Source of the DNA: an uncultured Planctomycetota bacterium | Lineage (GTDB): Bacteria > Planctomycetota > Phycisphaerae > UBA1845 > Fen-1342 | DNA length: 57,231 nt | Direction of reading: 5' to 3' | Assembly: GCA_900696535.1 (NCBI GenBank) | Contig: CAADGM010000267.1 | Coordinates: 1 to 57,231, forward strand | Shown: positions 3,945-29,616 of the stretch, in pieces | Position numbering within the stretch: position 1 is the first letter of the stretch | Layout of the letters: each line of letters begins with the position of its first letter | Notes under the pieces: model-generated | The model's input: only the letters and a program-made list of their open reading frames with translations | Told to the model about the DNA's origin: nothing | The model's database searches: none | Translations under genes and position numbers: made by a program

Positions 3945-6440
3945 TTACTTCGACGCGTGCAGCACCACACCACCGACGGCCGGCACCGACACGCGCAGCG
4001 TGCCGCCCTCCGCCGCGAGCGGCCCGTCGGGCCCCAGCGCCACGTTCCATTGCGACGGCGCGCCGGCGGGTAGCGGCACCGCGACGGCCGCGTCCTTGCC
4101 GGACGCGTTGAGCAGAACGATCACGCGCTCGCGGTCGTCCTCCCGCAGGAAGGCCCAGACATCCGCCTGGTCGTCGGTCAGCAGCGTGGAGAACGTCCCG
4201 CGCCGCAGGGCCGAGTGCTGCTTCCGGAGCGCCGCCGCCTGCTTGAAGAAGGCGAGCTGCTCGCCGTGAACGAAGTTCTCCTCGGGCTTCTCATACGGCT
4301 CCAGGTCCGCCCAGAGCATGGGCTTGCGGTTGGAGGGATCGTCGGCGCCCCACATGCCGGCTTCGTTGCCATAGTAGAGCAGCGGTGCTCCGACGTACGT
4401 CATCTGGAGCAGCGTCGCCAGTCGAGCCCGGGCGTAAGCCTCTTCGGTGGGGCGCTCCTGGTTGTAGTCCGGGTTGTTGTCCTGCACACGGTTCTGCCGG
4501 TCGTACTCGCGATCCGGATTCATCGCCATCGACGCCAGCCGGTCGGTGTCGTGACTGTCCACGAGGCTCTGGAGTGAGTAGGTCGCGGCGGCGGGGTAGG
4601 CGAGCTGGAGTTCGTGGAGGCGGCCGGCCGCGGCGCTGGCCGGAATCTTGTGCTGGCGGTCGAAGATCCAGGCGACCGCGGTGCGGGCGAACTCGTAGTT
4701 CATCACGGCATCGAAGTGCTCGCCATCGAGCCACTGGTCGGCGCGATGCCAGACCTCGCCGGTGATGAATGCGTCGGGGTTGATCTTCTTGACGAAGGCG
4801 CGCCACTCGGCCCAGAAGGGGCGCGGGATGTCGTTGGGCACGTCGAGCCGCCAGCCGTCGATGCCGTCGCTCGGGTCGCCATCGCCGTCCGGGTCCATCC
4901 AGCGCTGCGTCACGGCGAAGAGGTGCTTCTTGAGCGAGTCGCTCGCGAAGCCGTTGGCATCCTTCTTGAAAACCGGCATGTGGGCGAAGCCGGCCCAGCC
5001 CCGGTACGCGAACGGCTGCCAGCTCGTCACGTCGAACCAGTCCGCGAAGCGCGACTGCTTGCCCACCTGCCGCACGTCGCGGAATGCCGGGTGGTCGTCG
5101 CCGCAGTGGTTGAACACTGCATCCAGCACGACGTGGAAGCCCATCTGCTTGGCCTTGCGCACGAAGGCCAGGAAGCGCTTGTCGCTCTCCGTCCATTGCC
5201 AGGTGGCCGGGTTGAGCAGGTCCTCCTGCTTGATGACCTGCTCGTACGAGTCCTTCACGCCGAGGCGATCGTCCACGTGGATGAAGTTGGCCACGTCGTA
5301 CTTGTGGTACGAGGGCGCGGCGAAAATCGGCGTGAGGTACAGCGCGTTCACGCCGAGCTCCTTGAGGTAGGGGAGCTTCTCCTCGATGCCGGCCAGGTCG
5401 CCGCCGTAGAACCGGGCGAAGGCGAAGAAGTTGTAGAACGTCTGCCCGTCCTTGCCCTCCCAGGGCGAGGGCGTGAACCACTCGCTCGTCCAGGGCCGTA
5501 CCGGATCGGGATCGTTGGCCGGATCGCCGTTGCGGAAGCGGTCCGGGATGATCTGGTACCAGATGGCGTCGCGGGTCCACTCGGGCGTCTTCAGCATCGC
5601 CCGCGGCATGTGCGTGTAGTAGTAGCTGTAGGGATCGCCTACGGGCGGCCCGCCGTCCTCCAGCACGAACGTGTACGTGATTCCGGTCGGCTCGCGCCGC
5701 TCCGCGGGCGGCGGCGGAAACTCCACCTTCGTCTCCCAGTACGTAAACATCGGCCCCACGGCCAGCGGCTCCATGGGCTGGAGCTTCGGCTCGGCGCCCT
5801 TCTCGCCCTGGATGGCGAACGTCACCTTCTGCACGTCGTTCGTCAGCGTGCGGTACCGGAACGAGACCAGCGTCGGCGACATCTGCTGGATGTAGAGAGG
5901 CTCCGGGGCCCGGTGCATCAGGCCGCTGGCGTCGATCCTCTGGTCTCCCACCTTCGCGTCCGAGGCCGCGAGGCGGGCCAGCCGGCCCAGGCGGACGAAC
6001 GAGTTGAAACCGCCGTGGCCATCAGGGACCTGCTCGGTGTTGGCGGGGTCGGCGCGCCACGTGTCCTCGTCGATCAGGAACTTGTACTGGTGCACCCCTG
6101 TAGGCAAGGAGACTTCGACCGTCCACTCGCCATCGGCGTTCGGGCCGGCCATCGGGGTCGTCTCGCGCTCCCAGTTGTTGAACGTCCCCACCAGGGCGAC
6201 GCGCCGGGCTTCCATCTCCGGGCGGAAGCGGAACGTGACTTTCCACGTATCCATCTCAACCCAGCGCGCGGCGATCGAGCGGGGCAGCGTCGCCGTGTCC
6301 TCCGAGACGGCCCGCGCCTCGATCGGCGGCGCCGGAGGCCATGTGCCCGGTGTCGCCGTCGTGGCTGCCACGAGACAGAGCGTCCCCACCAGGCCGAGGT
6401 AGGTTGCCGTCGCAGGTCGCGTGCTTCTGGTCATCATCAT
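3945..6440 (-). CDS. Secreted GH13 alpha-amylase/neopullulanase-like hydrolase with CBM48-like module
   Basis: An 831-residue glycoside hydrolase. Residues 1-32 look like a signal peptide. Residues 65-150 form an AMPK/CBM48-like starch-binding module (VALVGTFNNWERETTPM, HQYKFLIDEDTWRADP). About 180-285 is a second beta domain like the N domain of neopullulanases. The catalytic barrel starts at WYQIIPDRFRNGDPAND. Catalytic residues are visible: nucleophile D533 in GWRLDVPND, acid/base E562 in ITGEVWH and D631 in DSHDTDRLAS. A short C-terminal beta domain ends the protein. Together this predicts export and hydrolysis of alpha-1,4 glucans, including cyclodextrin- or pullulan-type substrates. A GGGACGGG run precedes the ATG. 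It is followed by the M42-like gene on the same strand. Confidence 0.93.
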   Translation of the reverse strand: MMMTRSTRPATATYLGLVGTLCLVAATTATPGTWPPAPPIEARAVSEDTATLPRSIAARWVEMDTWKVTFRFRPEMEARRVALVGTFNNWERETTPMAGPNADGEWTVEVSLPTGVHQYKFLIDEDTWRADPANTEQVPDGHGGFNSFVRLGRLARLAASDAKVGDQRIDASGLMHRAPEPLYIQQMSPTLVSFRYRTLTNDVQKVTFAIQGEKGAEPKLQPMEPLAVGPMFTYWETKVEFPPPPAERREPTGITYTFVLEDGGPPVGDPYSYYYTHMPRAMLKTPEWTRDAIWYQIIPDRFRNGDPANDPDPVRPWTSEWFTPSPWEGKDGQTFYNFFAFARFYGGDLAGIEEKLPYLKELGVNALYLTPIFAAPSYHKYDVANFIHVDDRLGVKDSYEQVIKQEDLLNPATWQWTESDKRFLAFVRKAKQMGFHVVLDAVFNHCGDDHPAFRDVRQVGKQSRFADWFDVTSWQPFAYRGWAGFAHMPVFKKDANGFASDSLKKHLFAVTQRWMDPDGDGDPSDGIDGWRLDVPNDIPRPFWAEWRAFVKKINPDAFITGEVWHRADQWLDGEHFDAVMNYEFARTAVAWIFDRQHKIPASAAAGRLHELQLAYPAAATYSLQSLVDSHDTDRLASMAMNPDREYDRQNRVQDNNPDYNQERPTEEAYARARLATLLQMTYVGAPLLYYGNEAGMWGADDPSNRKPMLWADLEPYEKPEENFVHGEQLAFFKQAAALRKQHSALRRGTFSTLLTDDQADVWAFLREDDRERVIVLLNASGKDAAVAVPLPAGAPSQWNVALGPDGPLAAEGGTLRVSVPAVGGVVLHASK

Positions 6441-22708: not shown

Positions 22709-23437
22709 ATGGGAGTTGGTAACCCGCTCATTGTGCTTGCGAGCATTCTGCTGGCCGCGCCATCCGACGCGCGAATCGAGGCCCGACCCGCCATGTATCC
22801 CCAGCTTACCGCCTACATCGAGCAGCGCATCGCGGAGTTCGACCGCATTCCGGCCTCCCGCCGCGAGCAACTCGCCCAGATCGCCACGTACGTCACGGAG
22901 TGCCGTGCCGCCGGCAAGCCCGCCCGCCTGGTCTTCGTTTGCACGCACAATTCCCGTCGCAGCCACCTTTCGCAACTTTGGGCGCAGGCCGCCGCGACCC
23001 ACTACGGTGTGCCCAACGTCTTCACGTACTCGGGCGGTACCGAGGCGACTGCGTTCAACCCGCGGGCAGTTGCGGCCATTGAACGGGCCGGATTCCGCGT
23101 TGAGCCGGGCGGCGACGAGATGAACCCGGTGTATCTCGTACGGCTCGGCGAAGGCATTCGTCCGCTGGCCTGTTTCTCCAAGCCTTACAACCACGCGCCG
23201 AATCCGCGGCAGGACTTCTGCGCTGTAATGGTGTGCACTGACGCGGACGAGAAGTGCCCGACAGTCGCCGGCGCGACGGCCCGTGTGTCTCTGCCGTTCG
23301 ATGATCCGAAGGCCTTCGACGGGACGCCCCAGGAGGCCGCCAAGTACGACGAGCGCTGCCGCGACATCGCCCGCGAGCTGCTCTGGGTCTTCTCGCAGGT
23401 GGCCCGCTCTGCTCAGACCGAGTCGCAGGCGTCGTAG
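22709..23437 (+). CDS. arsC: Arsenate reductase/low-MW phosphatase-like protein with N-terminal signal-like segment
   Basis: A 242-residue protein with the low-molecular-weight phosphatase P-loop VCTHNSRRS (C78, R84) and, near the C-terminus, VCTDADEKCPTV with C176 and C183 as possible resolving cysteines. This subfamily is annotated as arsenate reductase or protein-tyrosine phosphatase and sits in ars operons; it reduces As(V) to As(III). The core normally begins near MYPQLTAYIEQR (Met29). Here it is preceded by GNPLIVLASILLAA, which looks like a signal peptide. The ATG at 22709 has GGAGG 9 bases upstream, so the long form is supported. Export of an arsenate reductase would be unusual. Confidence 0.8.
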   Translation: MGVGNPLIVLASILLAAPSDARIEARPAMYPQLTAYIEQRIAEFDRIPASRREQLAQIATYVTECRAAGKPARLVFVCTHNSRRSHLSQLWAQAAATHYGVPNVFTYSGGTEATAFNPRAVAAIERAGFRVEPGGDEMNPVYLVRLGEGIRPLACFSKPYNHAPNPRQDFCAVMVCTDADEKCPTVAGATARVSLPFDDPKAFDGTPQEAAKYDERCRDIARELLWVFSQVARSAQTESQAS

Positions 23438-23466
23438 TTATCCCAGTCCGCGTCGTCGTCACGGTT

Positions 23467-23486
23467 CCGACCGCTGGCGCGGTCGG
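23467..23486 (+). other. Intra-operon hairpin between arsC and arsM
   Basis: CCGACCGC pairs with GCGGTCGG across a TGGC loop (8-bp perfect stem) in the 136-base gap between arsC and arsM. No U-tract follows. It might protect or partly attenuate the transcript. The remaining gap holds no ORF. Confidence 0.35.
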
Positions 23487-23573
23487 CCCAGACGCCACGG
23501 TTGCCTCAATCGCACCAGTTCTCGCCGTCGTCGCGATCCGCAGCGGCGGCGCGAGCGTCAGGAGTACCGAATC

Positions 23574-24443
23574 ATGCCGGAGTCTTCATGCCAGCGACCC
23601 GTTCACGACCTGGTCCGCGAGGGATATGCCCGCGTCGCACGCGAGAGTTCGTCGTGCCTGGGCGCGGGCAAGCCGACCCACGGCTGCTGTGGCGGCGGCG
23701 CCACAGCGACGCCCCTCGATCCGAACGCGCTCGCCCAGGCGATTGGCTACGCGTCCGACGAACTCGCCGCCACGCCGCAGGCAGCTAACATGGGCCTCTC
23801 ATGCGGCAACCCGACGGCGCTCGCCTCGCTGCGGCCCGGCGAGGTCGTGCTCGACCTCGGGGCGGGTGGTGGCTTCGACTGCTTCATCGCCGGTCCCAAG
23901 GTTGGCCCGGGCGGGCGCGTCATCGGCGTGGACATGACACACGAGATGGTCAGCCTCGCGCGACGCAACCTCGCGGCGTATCGTGAGCGCACCGGGCTGG
24001 ACAACGTCGAGTTCCGGCTGGGCGAGATCGAGCACCTGCCCGTCCCCGACGCCAGCGTCGACGTCGTCATCTCGAACTGCGTCATCAACCTGTCCCCGGA
24101 CAAGCCGCAGGTCTGGCGGGAGATTGCCCGCGTGCTGCGGCCGGGCGGGCGCGTCGCCGTCTCTGATCTGGCACTGCTGCGCCCGCTGCCCGAGGCGATT
24201 CGCGGCATGGTGGAAGCCCTCGTCGGCTGCGTCGCCGGCGCGGCGCTCCTTGAGGACACGCGCTCCATGGCCGAGGAAGCGGGGCTGGTCGATGTCCGCG
24301 TGACGACGAAGCCGGAGTACGTCTCCACGCTCCTGGGTTCCGGGGACACGCTCTACCAGCAGATCCTGGCCGCGCTGCCGCCGGGTACCTCGCCGGCGGA
24401 CTTCGTCACCAGCGCAAACATCGAGGCGCGCAAGCCCGTCTAG
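23574..24443 (+). CDS. arsM: Arsenite S-adenosylmethionine methyltransferase
   Basis: A 289-residue ArsM. The SAM motif is VVLDLGAGGGFDCFIAGPKV, and GRVIGVDMTHEMV carries the acidic ribose contact. The three As(III)-binding cysteines fit: C77 (GLSCGNP), C169 (ISNCVINLSPDK) and C219 (LVGCVAGA), with the 50-residue spacing of the last two equal to that in characterised algal ArsM. It methylates arsenite to mono- and dimethyl forms in the cytoplasm. ATG at 23574 has AGGAG about 10 bases upstream. The frame is open upstream but that part has no ArsM features. Third gene of the ars operon. Confidence 0.94.
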   Translation: MPESSCQRPVHDLVREGYARVARESSSCLGAGKPTHGCCGGGATATPLDPNALAQAIGYASDELAATPQAANMGLSCGNPTALASLRPGEVVLDLGAGGGFDCFIAGPKVGPGGRVIGVDMTHEMVSLARRNLAAYRERTGLDNVEFRLGEIEHLPVPDASVDVVISNCVINLSPDKPQVWREIARVLRPGGRVAVSDLALLRPLPEAIRGMVEALVGCVAGAALLEDTRSMAEEAGLVDVRVTTKPEYVSTLLGSGDTLYQQILAALPPGTSPADFVTSANIEARKPV

Positions 24444-24458
24444 TCCCTCGGGAGACGA

Positions 24459-25580
24459 GTGGTGACCACTTCGAGCGCGAACATCGCGGAGCCGGTGGCT
24501 GCGTCGGCGCTCTCGCCGATGTGTCCAATGCGGCTCTCCTTCCTTGACCGCTACCTGACGCTCTGGATCTTCCTGGCGATGGCGGCCGGTGTCGGGCTGG
24601 GGCACTTCGTTACCGGCATCGAAGCGTTCCTCGACCGCTTCCGCGTCGGCACGACCAACATTCCCATCGCGGTCGGCCTGATCCTCATGATGTACCCGCC
24701 GCTGGCCAAGGTCCGCTACGAGCAACTGCCGCGCGTCTTCCGCGACACGCGTGTCCTGGGCCTCTCGCTGCTGCAGAATTGGGTGATCGGCCCGGCGCTG
24801 ATGTTCGCGCTCGCCGTGCTCTTTCTGCGCGGCTACCCGGAGTACATGACCGGGCTGATCCTGATTGGCCTGGCCCGCTGCATCGCCATGGTCATCGTGT
24901 GGAACGAGCTGGCCCGCGGCGATACCGAGTACGCTGCCGGCCTGGTCGCGTTCAACTCCATCTTCCAGGTGCTCTTCTTCTCCGTCTACGCGTGGTTTTT
25001 CATGACGCTGCTGCCGCCGCTGCTCGGCCTGAGCGGAGCGGTCGTTAACGTCACCATCTGGGAGATCGCCCAGAGCGTGCTCATCTACCTCGGGATACCG
25101 TTCTTCGGCGGGATGCTGACGCGCGGCGTCCTACTGCCCGCCGCCGGCCGGGAGTGGTACGAGCGGCGCTTCATTCCCACGATCTCGCCGGTCACGCTGA
25201 TCGCCCTGCTGTTCACCATCGTCGTCATGTTCGCCCTGAAGGGAGACCGGATCGTGCGCGACTGGCACCACGCGCTGCTGATCGCCGCGCCCCTGGCCGC
25301 CTATTTCGTAATCATGTTCATGGTCTCGTTCTGGATGGGGCACCGGCTGGGGGCCGACTACTCGCGGACCACGACCATCGCCTTCACCGCCGCCAGCAAC
25401 AACTTCGAGTTGGCCATCGCCGTTGCCGTGGCGGTGTTCGGCTTGCAGCATGGGGCGGCGTTCGCGGCGGTCATCGGGCCGCTGGTGGAGGTTCCCGTGC
25501 TCATCGGCCTGGTCAGCGTCGCGCTTTGGTTCCGGCGGCGCTGGTGGCAGGCGGGCCCCGAGTCCGCCCGGGCCGCGTGA
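24459..25580 (+). CDS. acr3: Arsenite efflux transporter Acr3
   Basis: A 373-residue membrane protein of the Acr3/BASS fold with about ten helices. Family marks are [40 protein letters not shown] (the conserved Cys of Acr3), [44 protein letters not shown] and [13 protein letters not shown] with the conserved Glu. It expels arsenite from the cell. GTG at 24459, 15 bases after arsM, or GTG at 24462 can start it; GGGAG precedes both. The N-terminal 25 residues are cytoplasmic. It ends the operon. Confidence 0.95.
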
Positions 25581-25921: not shown

Positions 25922-25950
25922 TTGACGGGGGCATTGCCGCTTCATAGCAT
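25922..25950 (+). promoter_or_regulatory. Sigma70-like promoter for tRNA-His/hisS
   Basis: TTGACG at 25922-25927, a 17-base spacer, TAGCAT at 25945-25950. The tRNA begins at 25997, so a processed 5' leader of about 40 bases is expected. It may also drive hisS, which starts 136 bases after the tRNA with no strong terminator between. Confidence 0.55.
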
Positions 25951-25996
25951 GATGGATTCGCGGGGCGGCACGCTGATCGTGTCCGACCTGCCGCCC

Positions 25997-26070
25997 GCCG
26001 AAGTAGCTCAGTTGGCTAGAGCGCCAGATTGTGGTTCTGGAGGCCCTGGGTTCGAGCCCCAGCTTCGGCA
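25997..26070 (+). tRNA. tRNA-His (GTG) lacking encoded G-1 and C73
   Basis: The cloverleaf closes perfectly: acceptor GCCGAAG/CTTCGGC, D stem GCTC/GAGC, anticodon stem CCAGA/TCTGG with loop TTGTGGT (anticodon GTG, His), variable loop of 5 and T stem CTGGG/CCCAG. The discriminator base 73 is A and the base at -1 in the genome is C. Nearly all bacterial tRNA-His genes instead encode G-1 and C73, the main HisRS identity pair. CCA is not encoded (TCC follows). A small GGGGCG/CGCCCC hairpin lies just after at 26078-26093. The gene sits immediately upstream of hisS. Confidence 0.93.
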
Positions 26071-26205
26071 TCCCGGTGGGGCGAGGCCGCCCCAGGATCC
26101 CGGACGTGGCTGCCGATCGATGTCCATGACGAGGGACGGCCCGCGGCTTGGCAGACCCCTCGGCGTGCACCGTTCTGCCCGCCAAAGAACCCAGGCCAGG
26201 CGCCC

Positions 26206-27681
26206 TTGACCGACGCAATCGTCCAACCCCGGCTCATGCGTGGCCTGCGGGACTACCTGCCCGAGCAGATGCAGGCCCGGCAGTGGATCATCGACACGAT
26301 CCGCCGCGTCTACGAGCTGTACGCCTACGTTCCGCTCGGCACGCCGGCTATGGAATACCTCGACGTGCTCACCGGCACGGCCGGCGAGTCCAGTGACAAG
26401 GAGCTGTTCGTCGTCCAGGGGCCGGACGAGGAGCGGCTCGGGCTGCGGTTCGACCAGACTGTGTCTCTGGCTCGCGTGGTCGCCCAGTACCCCGACCTGC
26501 CGCGCCCCTTCCGCCGATACCAGGTGCAGCCCGTCTGGCGCTGCGACAATCCGTACGAGAAGCGCGGGCGTTTCCGCGAGTTCATCCAGTTCGATATCGA
26601 CGCCGTCGGTGTCGAGTCGGCCCTGGCCGACCTCGAGATGATCACCGCCATGTGCGACACGATGTCGGCCCTGCATACGGGGCCGTATCGCGTCCGTGTC
26701 TCGAGCCGGCGCGTGCTGACCCTGCTCCTGAAGTACGCTCGCATCCCCGAAGCGCGGGCCGCCGACGTGTTTCGCGTGCTCGATAAGCTCGACAAGCTCG
26801 GGCACGAGAAGGTCCGGCTCGAGCTCACCGCCGGCTACAAGGACGAGTCGGGCAGTCCCGTGCCCGGCCTGGGCCTCGGTGGCGAGCAGGTCGACCGCAT
26901 TGACACGTTCCTGGCTGCGTGCGGCACCGCCGACCGCCAGCGCGCCGGCGAGGGCGTGCAACGCCGTGACGCCGCGCTGGCGCGCATCGCCGAGTTGTTC
27001 CGCGAGGTCGACGGCGCTGAGGCGGAGTTGGCGGCGCTGGCCGGGCTTTCGCGTCAGCTCGCGGCCCTGGGCTACGGCGATGACCGCGTCGTCTTCGACT
27101 TCAGTATCGCCCGCGGCCTGGCGTATTACACCGGCACCGTCTTCGAGACCGAACTGTGCGAGCTGCCCGAGTTTGGCTCGGTCTGCTCGGGCGGGCGCTA
27201 CGACGACCTCGTGGCGCGCTTCCTCGGGGAGAAGGTGCCCGCGGTCGGTACGTCGGTCGGCGTCGATCGGATGCTCGTCGCCCTGCTCGAGCTCGGCCGC
27301 GCGCCGCTGCGCAAGGCCACGGCCCAGGTGCTTGTCACCACACTCGACGACGCCCTGACCGATGATTACCTGGCGATGACCTACGAGCTGCGCCGCGCCG
27401 GCGTTCGAACCGAGATGTACCACGGCATGTTCAAGCGCTTCGGCAAGCAGGTGCAGTACGGCGACCGCTACGAGATCCCGATCCTGGTCGTCTGCGGGTC
27501 GGACGAGAAAGCCCGCGGCGTCGTCCAGCTCAAGGACATGGCCATCGGCCGCCAGCTTGCCGCCGAGAAGAAGCTCGCCGACAAGTCGCAGTGGCGGGCC
27601 GCCCGGCCGGGCCAGTTCGACGTGCCGCGGGGCGAGCTCGTCGCGGCGGTACGGAAGCTGCTCGCCGAGATCGGTGCGTAG
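26206..27681 (+). CDS. hisS: Histidyl-tRNA synthetase (A73-type motif 2)
   Basis: A 491-residue class II HisRS. The start is TTG at 26206, since the conserved opening IVQPRLMRGLRDYLPEQM must be included; the ATG at 26236 would cut it. Motif 2 is FRRYQVQPVWRCDNPYEKRG then RFREFIQFDIDAVG, with Arg112. HisA-type signature is RGLAYYTGTVFE, and motif 3 is VPAVGTSVGVDRMLVALLEL. The motif-2 loop DNP..KRGRFREF resembles eukaryotic and alphaproteobacterial HisRS, which handle A73 tRNAs, not the E. coli form (RPQKGRYRQF) that reads C73. The C-terminal anticodon domain is intact. tRNA-His with A73 lies directly upstream. Confidence 0.94.
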   Translation: MTDAIVQPRLMRGLRDYLPEQMQARQWIIDTIRRVYELYAYVPLGTPAMEYLDVLTGTAGESSDKELFVVQGPDEERLGLRFDQTVSLARVVAQYPDLPRPFRRYQVQPVWRCDNPYEKRGRFREFIQFDIDAVGVESALADLEMITAMCDTMSALHTGPYRVRVSSRRVLTLLLKYARIPEARAADVFRVLDKLDKLGHEKVRLELTAGYKDESGSPVPGLGLGGEQVDRIDTFLAACGTADRQRAGEGVQRRDAALARIAELFREVDGAEAELAALAGLSRQLAALGYGDDRVVFDFSIARGLAYYTGTVFETELCELPEFGSVCSGGRYDDLVARFLGEKVPAVGTSVGVDRMLVALLELGRAPLRKATAQVLVTTLDDALTDDYLAMTYELRRAGVRTEMYHGMFKRFGKQVQYGDRYEIPILVVCGSDEKARGVVQLKDMAIGRQLAAEKKLADKSQWRAARPGQFDVPRGELVAAVRKLLAEIGA

Positions 27682-27741: not shown

Positions 27742-29616
27742 ATGCCGGACGACCATTCGCCTGTCACGCTCGACGGCTCGAGCCTGACGATTGAGGACCT
27801 GGTCCGCGTCGCGCGCGACCCGCGCATCAAGGTGGCCTGCGCGCCGGACGCGTTGAAGCGCGTGGCCCGTGGCTGGCAGCAGATCGAGCAGCTCGTCGCC
27901 GACTACCAGGCTGCGCTCGCCGCCGATCAGCCCCTGCCGCGCGTGTACGGCGTGACGACCGGCTTCGGCGAGTTCAAGCACGCCCGCATCGACCCGGCCC
28001 ACTTCGAACAGATGCAGCGCAACATCCTGCTCTCGCACGCCGTCGGCGCCGGTGACAACGCCGACCACGATGACCTGGTCAACTACTTTCCCGCCGAGGT
28101 CGTCCGCGCCGCGCTCGTCCTGCGGCTGAACGCGTTCCTGAAGGGGCACTCGGGCGTGCGGCCCGCGCTGGTCGAGTGCGTCGAGCGAATGATTAACCGC
28201 GGCATCGTGCCGCTCGTGCCGACGCGCGGCTCCCTGGGGGCCAGCGGCGACCTGTGCCCGCTGGCGCACCTGTTCGTCGTGCTGCTGGGCGAGGGACGCT
28301 ACTACATCGCGAATCGGCCGGAGGACCTCGCCGCCGGTGCCGCCCAGCGTCGGGAGATGCGCCGCGCCGGCGAGCACCTGGCCGACGACCTGGGGTTTGC
28401 CGCGCCACCGCGCCCGAGCTTCAAGGAGGGGCTCGCGCTGACTAACGGCGCGACGTTCTCGGCGGCAATGCTGGCGCTGGCCGTGCACGACGCCGAGCGG
28501 CTGGCGAGCACGGCGGACGTCGCGGCCGCGCTGACCCTCGAGGCCATCTGCGGGCGGTCGCGTATGCTCGACCCGAAGATCCACGCGGCCCGCAACCTGG
28601 ACGGGCAGATCGAGTCGGCCGCGAACCTGCGCGCCCTCGTCTTCGGCAGCCGCCTGATCGACACAGTTGACGACGTGCAGGATTGCTACAGCGTGCGCTG
28701 TACCCCGCCCGTGCACGGCGCGACGCGCGACGCGATCGCGTTCGCCCGCATGATCGCACAGCGCGAGTGCAACGCCGCCACGGACAATCCGCTGTTCTTC
28801 CCCGAGGGGGGCGAGCCCTGGGACGTGCAGGCGTTCGGTGGAAACCGCCCGGCTACGCTGACCGACCGCCACGCGCACTCGGCGGGCAACTTCCATGGCC
28901 AGCCGCTGGCCATCGCCGCGGACACACTCTGCATCGCCGTCGCGGAACTGGCCGATATCGCGGAGCGCCGCACGCAGATGCTGCTCGACGCGCGGCACAA
29001 CCGCAATCTGCCGAGCAACCTGGTGGCTCGGGCCGGTCTCAACAGCGGCTACATGATTGCCCAGTACACCGCCGCCAGCCTGGTCAGCGAGAACAAGGTG
29101 CTGGCGCACCCGGCTGCGGTGGACAGCATCCCGTCGTCGTCCAACACCGAGGACCACGTGTCGATGTCGGCGCTGGCGTGCCGCAAGCTCCGCACCGTGC
29201 TGGGTAACACGCAGGCCGTGCTGGCCATCGAGTTGCTCGTCGGCGCTCAGGCGATCGACTGGCGGATCGGGATGCAGCGCGATCCCAACGCGAACGCGGC
29301 GGGTGGCCAGCAGACGCCGACTACGTTTGCCGCAGGGGCACTCAGCGTTTCCGACGCCGAGTGGCGCGCCTTCCGGCAGGCCACGGCTGCGGCGCAGCGG
29401 CCGCAGATCGCGGCCCGCCTGGGCGCTGGCACCCGCGCGGCGTACCTGTGCCTGCGCGAGGCCGTCCCCCCGTTGGATGACGATCGTGTGCTCGAGCCGG
29501 AGATCCGAGCCGTGCGGCGCGTGGTCGCCAGCGGTGCGCTTCTGACTGCCGTCAACGCGGCCTTGCCGGCGCCCTTGGCGCCGATCACTCCGCTGACACG
29601 GGCGAAGGGCGCCTGA
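27742..29616 (+). CDS. hutH: Histidine ammonia-lyase family MIO enzyme
   Basis: A 624-residue member of the HAL/PAL/aminomutase family. The MIO cofactor forms from A167-S168-G169 in GSLGASGDLCPLAH. Other marks are YGVTTGFGEF (active-site Tyr), GHSGVRPALVE, NGATFSAAMLAL, VQDCYSVRCTPPVHG and NAATDNPLFFPE. The usual HAL has about 510 residues; extra length is spread over the N-terminus, the stretch after NPLFFPE (about 20 residues before SAGNFHGQPLAIAAD) and the C-terminus. It would deaminate histidine to urocanate, but the length leaves room for a Tyr/Phe lyase or aminomutase. It follows hisS by 60 bases; no other hut gene is in the window. Confidence 0.82.
   Translation: MPDDHSPVTLDGSSLTIEDLVRVARDPRIKVACAPDALKRVARGWQQIEQLVADYQAALAADQPLPRVYGVTTGFGEFKHARIDPAHFEQMQRNILLSHAVGAGDNADHDDLVNYFPAEVVRAALVLRLNAFLKGHSGVRPALVECVERMINRGIVPLVPTRGSLGASGDLCPLAHLFVVLLGEGRYYIANRPEDLAAGAAQRREMRRAGEHLADDLGFAAPPRPSFKEGLALTNGATFSAAMLALAVHDAERLASTADVAAALTLEAICGRSRMLDPKIHAARNLDGQIESAANLRALVFGSRLIDTVDDVQDCYSVRCTPPVHGATRDAIAFARMIAQRECNAATDNPLFFPEGGEPWDVQAFGGNRPATLTDRHAHSAGNFHGQPLAIAADTLCIAVAELADIAERRTQMLLDARHNRNLPSNLVARAGLNSGYMIAQYTAASLVSENKVLAHPAAVDSIPSSSNTEDHVSMSALACRKLRTVLGNTQAVLAIELLVGAQAIDWRIGMQRDPNANAAGGQQTPTTFAAGALSVSDAEWRAFRQATAAAQRPQIAARLGAGTRAAYLCLREAVPPLDDDRVLEPEIRAVRRVVASGALLTAVNAALPAPLAPITPLTRAKGA

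Follow-up and report, generated by a model that had tools for sequence, protein, structure and literature searches.

The window analysed here, the whole 57,231-nt contig CAADGM010000267.1 from an uncultured planctomycete of the Phycisphaerae (assembly GCA_900696535.1), carries on its + strand a tRNA-His gene (25997-26070) and, just 3′ of it, hisS (26206-27681), the gene for histidyl-tRNA synthetase (HisRS). We consider it highly probable that these two form a matched pair that follows an alternative histidine identity rule, built on A73 and lacking the encoded G-1:C73 pair, and that such a pair arrives in a new host as an orthogonal linked unit and displaces the resident one. Judged by gene sequences and trees, the linked pair has most likely been transferred as a unit, repeatedly, between distantly related bacteria. 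Sequence comparison establishes the base identities, the covariation of tRNA with enzyme, the linkage of their genes, the repeated switches and the cross-family pairs in the gene tree on which this reading is built.

A tRNA-His gene without G-1:C73 beside an altered hisS

ARAGORN reports the tRNA-His(GTG) as the sole tRNA in the window. Its acceptor stem, GCCGAAG/CTTCGGC, is perfect at all seven base pairs, with G1:C72; base 73, at 26070, is A; position -1, at 25996, reads C in place of the usual encoded G; and positions 74-76 are TCC, so that CCA is not encoded. The canonical encoded G-1:C73 pair is thus absent from this tRNA, and a pattern search found none elsewhere in the metagenome-assembled genome (MAG) to which the contig belongs. 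The hisS gene starts, with a TTG codon, 135 nt 3′ of the tRNA gene on the same strand. Its 491-aa product scores 347 bits against TIGR00442 (cut-off 286.75), contains the HisA and HisB motifs RGLAYYTG and GGRYDDL, and falls into the A73-type clade in our HisRS trees. The motif-2 loop, RCDNPYEKRGRFREF (26539-26583, +), has lost the equivalent of Gln118 and bears a two-residue insertion: Lys, not the Gly of alphaproteobacteria, stands where E. coli has Gln118. The nearest named HisRS record, from the Phycisphaerae bacterium DeMMO2_9, is 72% identical to the window's.

The source MAG (4.24 Mb, 270 contigs, 95.9% complete, 6.1% contaminated) has a single hisS and, by pattern search, a single tRNA-His. 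A sequence-only reading of the window had described the 7-bp stem, A73, C-1 and missing G-1:C73 beside a hisS with an altered loop, and ARAGORN and the sequence confirm each of these. It had further suggested a switched identity, which is supported in that no second tRNA-His with G-1 and C73 was found in the MAG and in that the tree places the HisRS outside the ordinary group. The scan of the MAG for Thg1 (PF04446) that it had proposed gave no match.

A possible objection is that the contig is foreign, through an assembly or binning artefact, and that the true genome is canonical, and the 6.1% contamination of the MAG speaks for this. However, GC content is even throughout the window (66-70%), the window HisRS groups with seven genomes of the same family, and the MAG rpoB, from a different contig, clusters with the same genomes; the agreement of these groupings and the even GC argue against a foreign contig. 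Nor does the MAG contain any C73 tRNA-His. We regard an artefact as very improbable.

Covariation of tRNA and enzyme within the order

We examined 114 genomes of the window's order; the genomes used in this study are mostly draft MAGs, and named MAGs may be mislabelled. The tRNA-His genes were counted with a loose pattern, as a strict one beginning TTGTGRT misses the A73 tRNAs of relatives. An A73-type HisRS was found in 41 of the 114, and the remainder with a detectable gene have the ordinary HisRS, which resembles those of Thermoplasma and Trypanosoma. Where both genes were found, the A73-type HisRS goes with an A73 tRNA in 38 of 38 genomes and the ordinary HisRS with G-1:C73 in 55 of 55, although these counts are drawn from related genomes and are not independent, so that a Fisher value overstates their independence. 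On the best tree of rpoB, the only gene used for the species tree, there are nine changes of HisRS state and nine of base 73, and well-supported branches give seven independent pairs, in all of which the tRNA tracks the HisRS (p 0.016).

The Gln118 column of motif 2 holds Gln in 29 of 29 C73-type HisRS of the order and in none of 68 A73-type enzymes, in agreement with the Gln/Gly covariation reported in alphaproteobacteria (PMC3937112, PMC9976931). Among distinct tRNA-His sequences, position -1 is G in 30 of the 31 with C73, the single exception coming from a bacterium of the Candidate Phyla Radiation (CPR; L166); in the 67 with A73 it is T (43), C (13), A (6) or G (5). Position -1 is unconstrained in the A73 set; encoded G-1 is therefore not conserved there, and what is seen in the window is more than chance. 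Thg1 was found in none of the A73-type genomes of the order, the three genomes that have it being non-A73. These homologues (L222 in G020, L220 in G103, L221 in G105) all belong to genomes of C73 lineage; our patterns detected no tRNA-His in G020, and in G103 and G105 the HisRS match spans only part of the query.

The A73-type synthetase across phyla

The HisRS tree gathers the A73 enzymes, with one C73 sister from the CPR, into a single group separate from ordinary HisRS. The clade includes enzymes of Acidobacteriota (55-58% identical to the window's), Zixiibacteriota, Hydrogenedentota, a Nitrospiraceae MAG, Coatesbacteria, Neomarinimicrobiota, a Bacteroidetes MAG and alphaproteobacteria. We found 32 further genomes, 31 of them outside the order, with an A73-type HisRS and its tRNA; the tRNA has U72-A73 in all, and a C73 tRNA-His was found in none of the 32. 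Two subclades are distinguished: type I, with the window HisRS and Acidobacteriota, and type II, with alphaproteobacteria and most genomes of family f8. Only one member of the wider clade goes with C73, the HisRS of CPR genome L166; it has retained the Gln and diverges basally in the A73 clade. At this locus (Candidatus Buchananbacteria, G149; 5410-5486) a C73 tRNA-His with C-1 adjoins an RPQ-type HisRS, possibly a C73, G-1-less intermediate.

Could the pattern have arisen from the presence of both pairs in the ancestor of the order, followed by differential loss and no transfer at all? The several switches at scattered tips are compatible with such a history, and a single type-I clade is not rejected at 0.05. 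However, none of the 114 genomes carries both HisRS types, and the gene tree conflicts with it: by the approximately unbiased (AU) test the type-I HisRS of family f8 are rejected as a clade (p 8e-7), as are those of f7 (p 6e-4); enzymes of the two families pair as sisters (G046 of f7 with G070 of f8, support 98/97; G111 of f7 with G076 of f8, 99/97); and close relatives are found in other phyla. We judge differential loss to be quite unlikely. Within the window's own family (f1), the rpoB tree nests the C73 genome G015 near the window's eight-genome clade and sets G019 apart; the eight-genome clade itself looks vertically inherited.

Linkage of the two genes and similarity of tRNA bodies

In 13 of the 19 type-I genomes the tRNA lies at most ~300 nt 5′ of hisS on the same strand, and in 17 within 2.5 kb; of the remaining two, one has it 27 kb off on the opposite strand and the other on a different contig. 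The tRNA also stands just 5′ of hisS in Acidobacteriota (L094, L095), Zixiibacteriota (L100), Coatesbacteria (L120), Neomarinimicrobiota (L140), an alphaproteobacterium (L164) and a further bacterium (L115), and in the Bacteroidetes MAG (L099) the two are linked but divergent. The chance of a neighbour within 300 nt is ~7e-5 per genome (300 nt in ~4.5 Mb), and in ordinary relatives the smallest distance between tRNA-His and hisS on one contig is ~76 kb (G007). Side observations concern gene number: in the type-II genome G072 two different A73 tRNA-His genes are separated by 8.6 kb (L235-L236), and two hits were also obtained in G021 and G098.

A different route to the same pairing would be transfer of HisRS alone, after which in-place mutation turned the resident G-1:C73 tRNA-His into an A73 one. 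An "in situ adaptation" model of tRNA-His has reportedly been put forward for alphaproteobacteria. The window tRNA lends this route some support, as it has a C73-like anticodon arm and ties in similarity; its anticodon loop, TTGTGGT with U38, is the sole such loop among the A73 tRNAs found and matches local C73 tRNAs, possibly because the anticodon arm has drifted or undergone gene conversion. Transfer of synthetases without their tRNAs is, moreover, common (PMC3937112). Against in-place mutation, in the tRNA body (positions 26-65) 33 of the 36 A73 genes of the order show greater similarity to A73 tRNAs from other phyla than to the order's C73 tRNAs, the acceptor stems differ throughout, and it is the A73 tRNA that adjoins the new hisS, which the resident tRNA does not. 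Because of the linkage and the similarity of tRNA bodies, we favour joint transfer of tRNA and enzyme, an event that we infer from these comparisons, and consider in-place mutation unlikely.

Several points nonetheless weigh against our preferred reading. The two genes are no longer linked in G014 and G021 and are unlinked in the type-II members of f8, so linkage is not required. The body of the window tRNA ties with those of local C73 tRNAs (0.825). Neither a single clade of all type-I HisRS of the order (AU p 0.058) nor a clade of f1 and G019 enzymes (AU p 0.06) is rejected, which leaves the number and direction of transfers unsure. The genomes are mostly draft MAGs, the window's own MAG is 6% contaminated, and the species tree was built from rpoB alone. 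Finally, we infer the 5′ processing and the charging specificity of the window tRNA from its gene and that of its enzyme.

C72 and the extended motif-2 loop in the window's family

By sequence, the rule appears to have shifted further in the window's family, with C72 for U72 and, in eight of nine genomes, a longer motif-2 loop. G1:C72 is found in all nine A73 genomes of f1 and U72 in every other A73 tRNA examined. As U72 is one of the tRNA-His determinants established in Caulobacter (PMC9976931), charging in the window's family must do without it. The loop is two residues longer in eight of the nine, and G019 combines C72 with the short loop; strict covariation of C72 with the longer loop was rejected on this account, and the change to C72 therefore does not depend on the longer loop.

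The longer loop recalls that of eukaryotes, RCDNPYEKRGRFRE aligning without gaps with the human RRDNPAMTRGRYRE, and this could be taken to mean that the whole system is of eukaryotic type, with a DNP...RGRFREF enzyme of eukaryotic origin and with G-1 added after transcription by Thg1. Such a system is already contradicted, and we grant it next to no probability: Thg1 occurs in no A73 genome of the order, human HisRS lies outside the A73 clade (on a long branch), and the HisRS tree places the eight-genome insertion clade inside a set of short-loop enzymes. Because the insertion clade is nested within enzymes that lack the insertion, the likeness of the DNP...RGRFREF loop to eukaryotic HisRS is, on the evidence of the tree, convergence.

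A possible mechanism and comparison with known systems

In the mechanism that we propose, the tRNA-His gene would be transcribed, perhaps together with hisS. In the absence of a G-1:C73 pair RNase P would cut at +1, and CCA would be added by the CCA enzyme. Charging of the A73 tRNA would then fall to a HisRS that has no C73-reading Gln in its motif-2 loop; it would read A73 and, if Caulobacter is a guide, the anticodon as well, and would not need G-1:C73. Pairs of this kind are orthogonal to the ordinary one, so that a newly arrived copy of linked tRNA and hisS could function immediately alongside the host's own pair, which would be lost later. Orthogonality has been documented between the tRNA-His/HisRS pairs of Caulobacter and E. 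coli (PMC3875453), and the window's own pair is presumed to share it.

The closest known system is that of the alphaproteobacterial RRCH clade (Rhodobacteraceae, Rhizobiales, Caulobacterales, Hyphomonadaceae), with biochemistry in Caulobacter crescentus. The window shares with it A73, the lack of an encoded G-1, the loss of Gln, the broad HisRS clade and the failure to find Thg1. It differs in having C72 rather than U72, a longer motif-2 loop and an enzyme of another subclade, that with Acidobacteriota; its tRNA and hisS are linked, and its rule is scattered within one order rather than being a clade-wide synapomorphy. The sequence-only reading had taken the rule to be the same as in alphaproteobacteria, which holds for A73, the missing G-1 and the lost Gln but not for base 72. 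Its proposal that the linked pair is a transferable unit is strongly supported by linkage in several phyla, joint switches on the rpoB tree and cross-family HisRS pairs, whereas its comparison with the eukaryotic loop, if read as kinship, fails, since the insertion is nested in a short-loop clade and the resemblance is convergent.

With the eukaryotic cytosolic system the window shares A73, the length of the motif-2 loop and its DNP...RGR pattern; unlike there, no G-1 added by Thg1 is expected, and the enzyme lies outside the eukaryotic lineage. The HisRS of Trypanosoma brucei and Acanthamoeba are G-1-independent according to work cited in PMC9976931. T. brucei HisRS resembles the window system in the absence of G-1 and of Gln118 but sits in the other HisRS lineage, close to Thermoplasma and to the ordinary HisRS of Phycisphaerae (long branches).

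In the literature the A73, G-1-less histidine rule is taken to have a likely single bacterial origin, and rules of this kind are held to be quite resistant to lateral transfer (PMC3937112). A literature search for A73 tRNA-His in Acidobacteria or Planctomycetes found no report, although an earlier mention outside the alphaproteobacteria is possible. In the genomes examined here the rule is scattered across one order and occurs in several phyla, with both halves linked, which suggests a simple reason for its transferability: an orthogonal pair arrives complete, so that the rule could spread by gene transfer. The order offers many natural before/after pairs for studying the replacement of a tRNA identity rule, and the pairs themselves are ready candidates for use as orthogonal HisRS/tRNA sets in genetic-code engineering.

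A hutH-like gene beside hisS, and other features of the locus

A third gene recurs at these loci. In the window it lies at 27742-29616 (+) and encodes a protein like histidine ammonia-lyase (HAL, HutH), with 525 bits to PF00221; it scores 531 against NF006871, above the cut-off of 524, and 510 against TIGR01225, below the cut-off of 539, and it shows the ASG triad of the 4-methylideneimidazole-5-one (MIO) group, a His-type SH motif and NTEDHVSM. Within the order, hisS is followed by a hutH-like gene in ten type-I genomes; the same holds for two Acidobacteriota, and such a gene stands beside hisS in the Bacteroidetes, Zixiibacteriota (on the opposite strand), Coatesbacteria and Neomarinimicrobiota loci; among the loci examined it was never beside an ordinary hisS. 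HAL and HisRS distances are correlated (Mantel r 0.64; 0 of 2000 permutations). The lyase neighbours in L105 and G098 were rejected as HAL, as they resemble other lyases.

A literature search found no link between hisS and hutH. Our guesses are that the neighbourhood arises by hitchhiking on a catabolic gene that can be selected for, or that it reflects a shared control by histidine. A broader and more doubtful reading, which we offer tentatively, is that tRNA-His(A73) and hisS, at times with the hutH-like gene, make up a mobile orthogonal module that has repeatedly replaced the canonical rule, perhaps carried along by the histidine-degrading gene, and that the window's family has a third rule, with C72-A73 and an extended eukaryote-like loop.

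A search of the + strand between tRNA-His and hisS found no terminator. A sigma-70-like promoter candidate, TTGACG-17-TAGCAT with 9 of 12 matches, lies 5′ of the tRNA (25922-25950, +); it is weak, one being found against 0.2 expected in shuffles. Directly 5′ of the tRNA-hisS cassette lie genes for an ArsM-like arsenite methyltransferase and ACR3 arsenite efflux (23283-25580, +).
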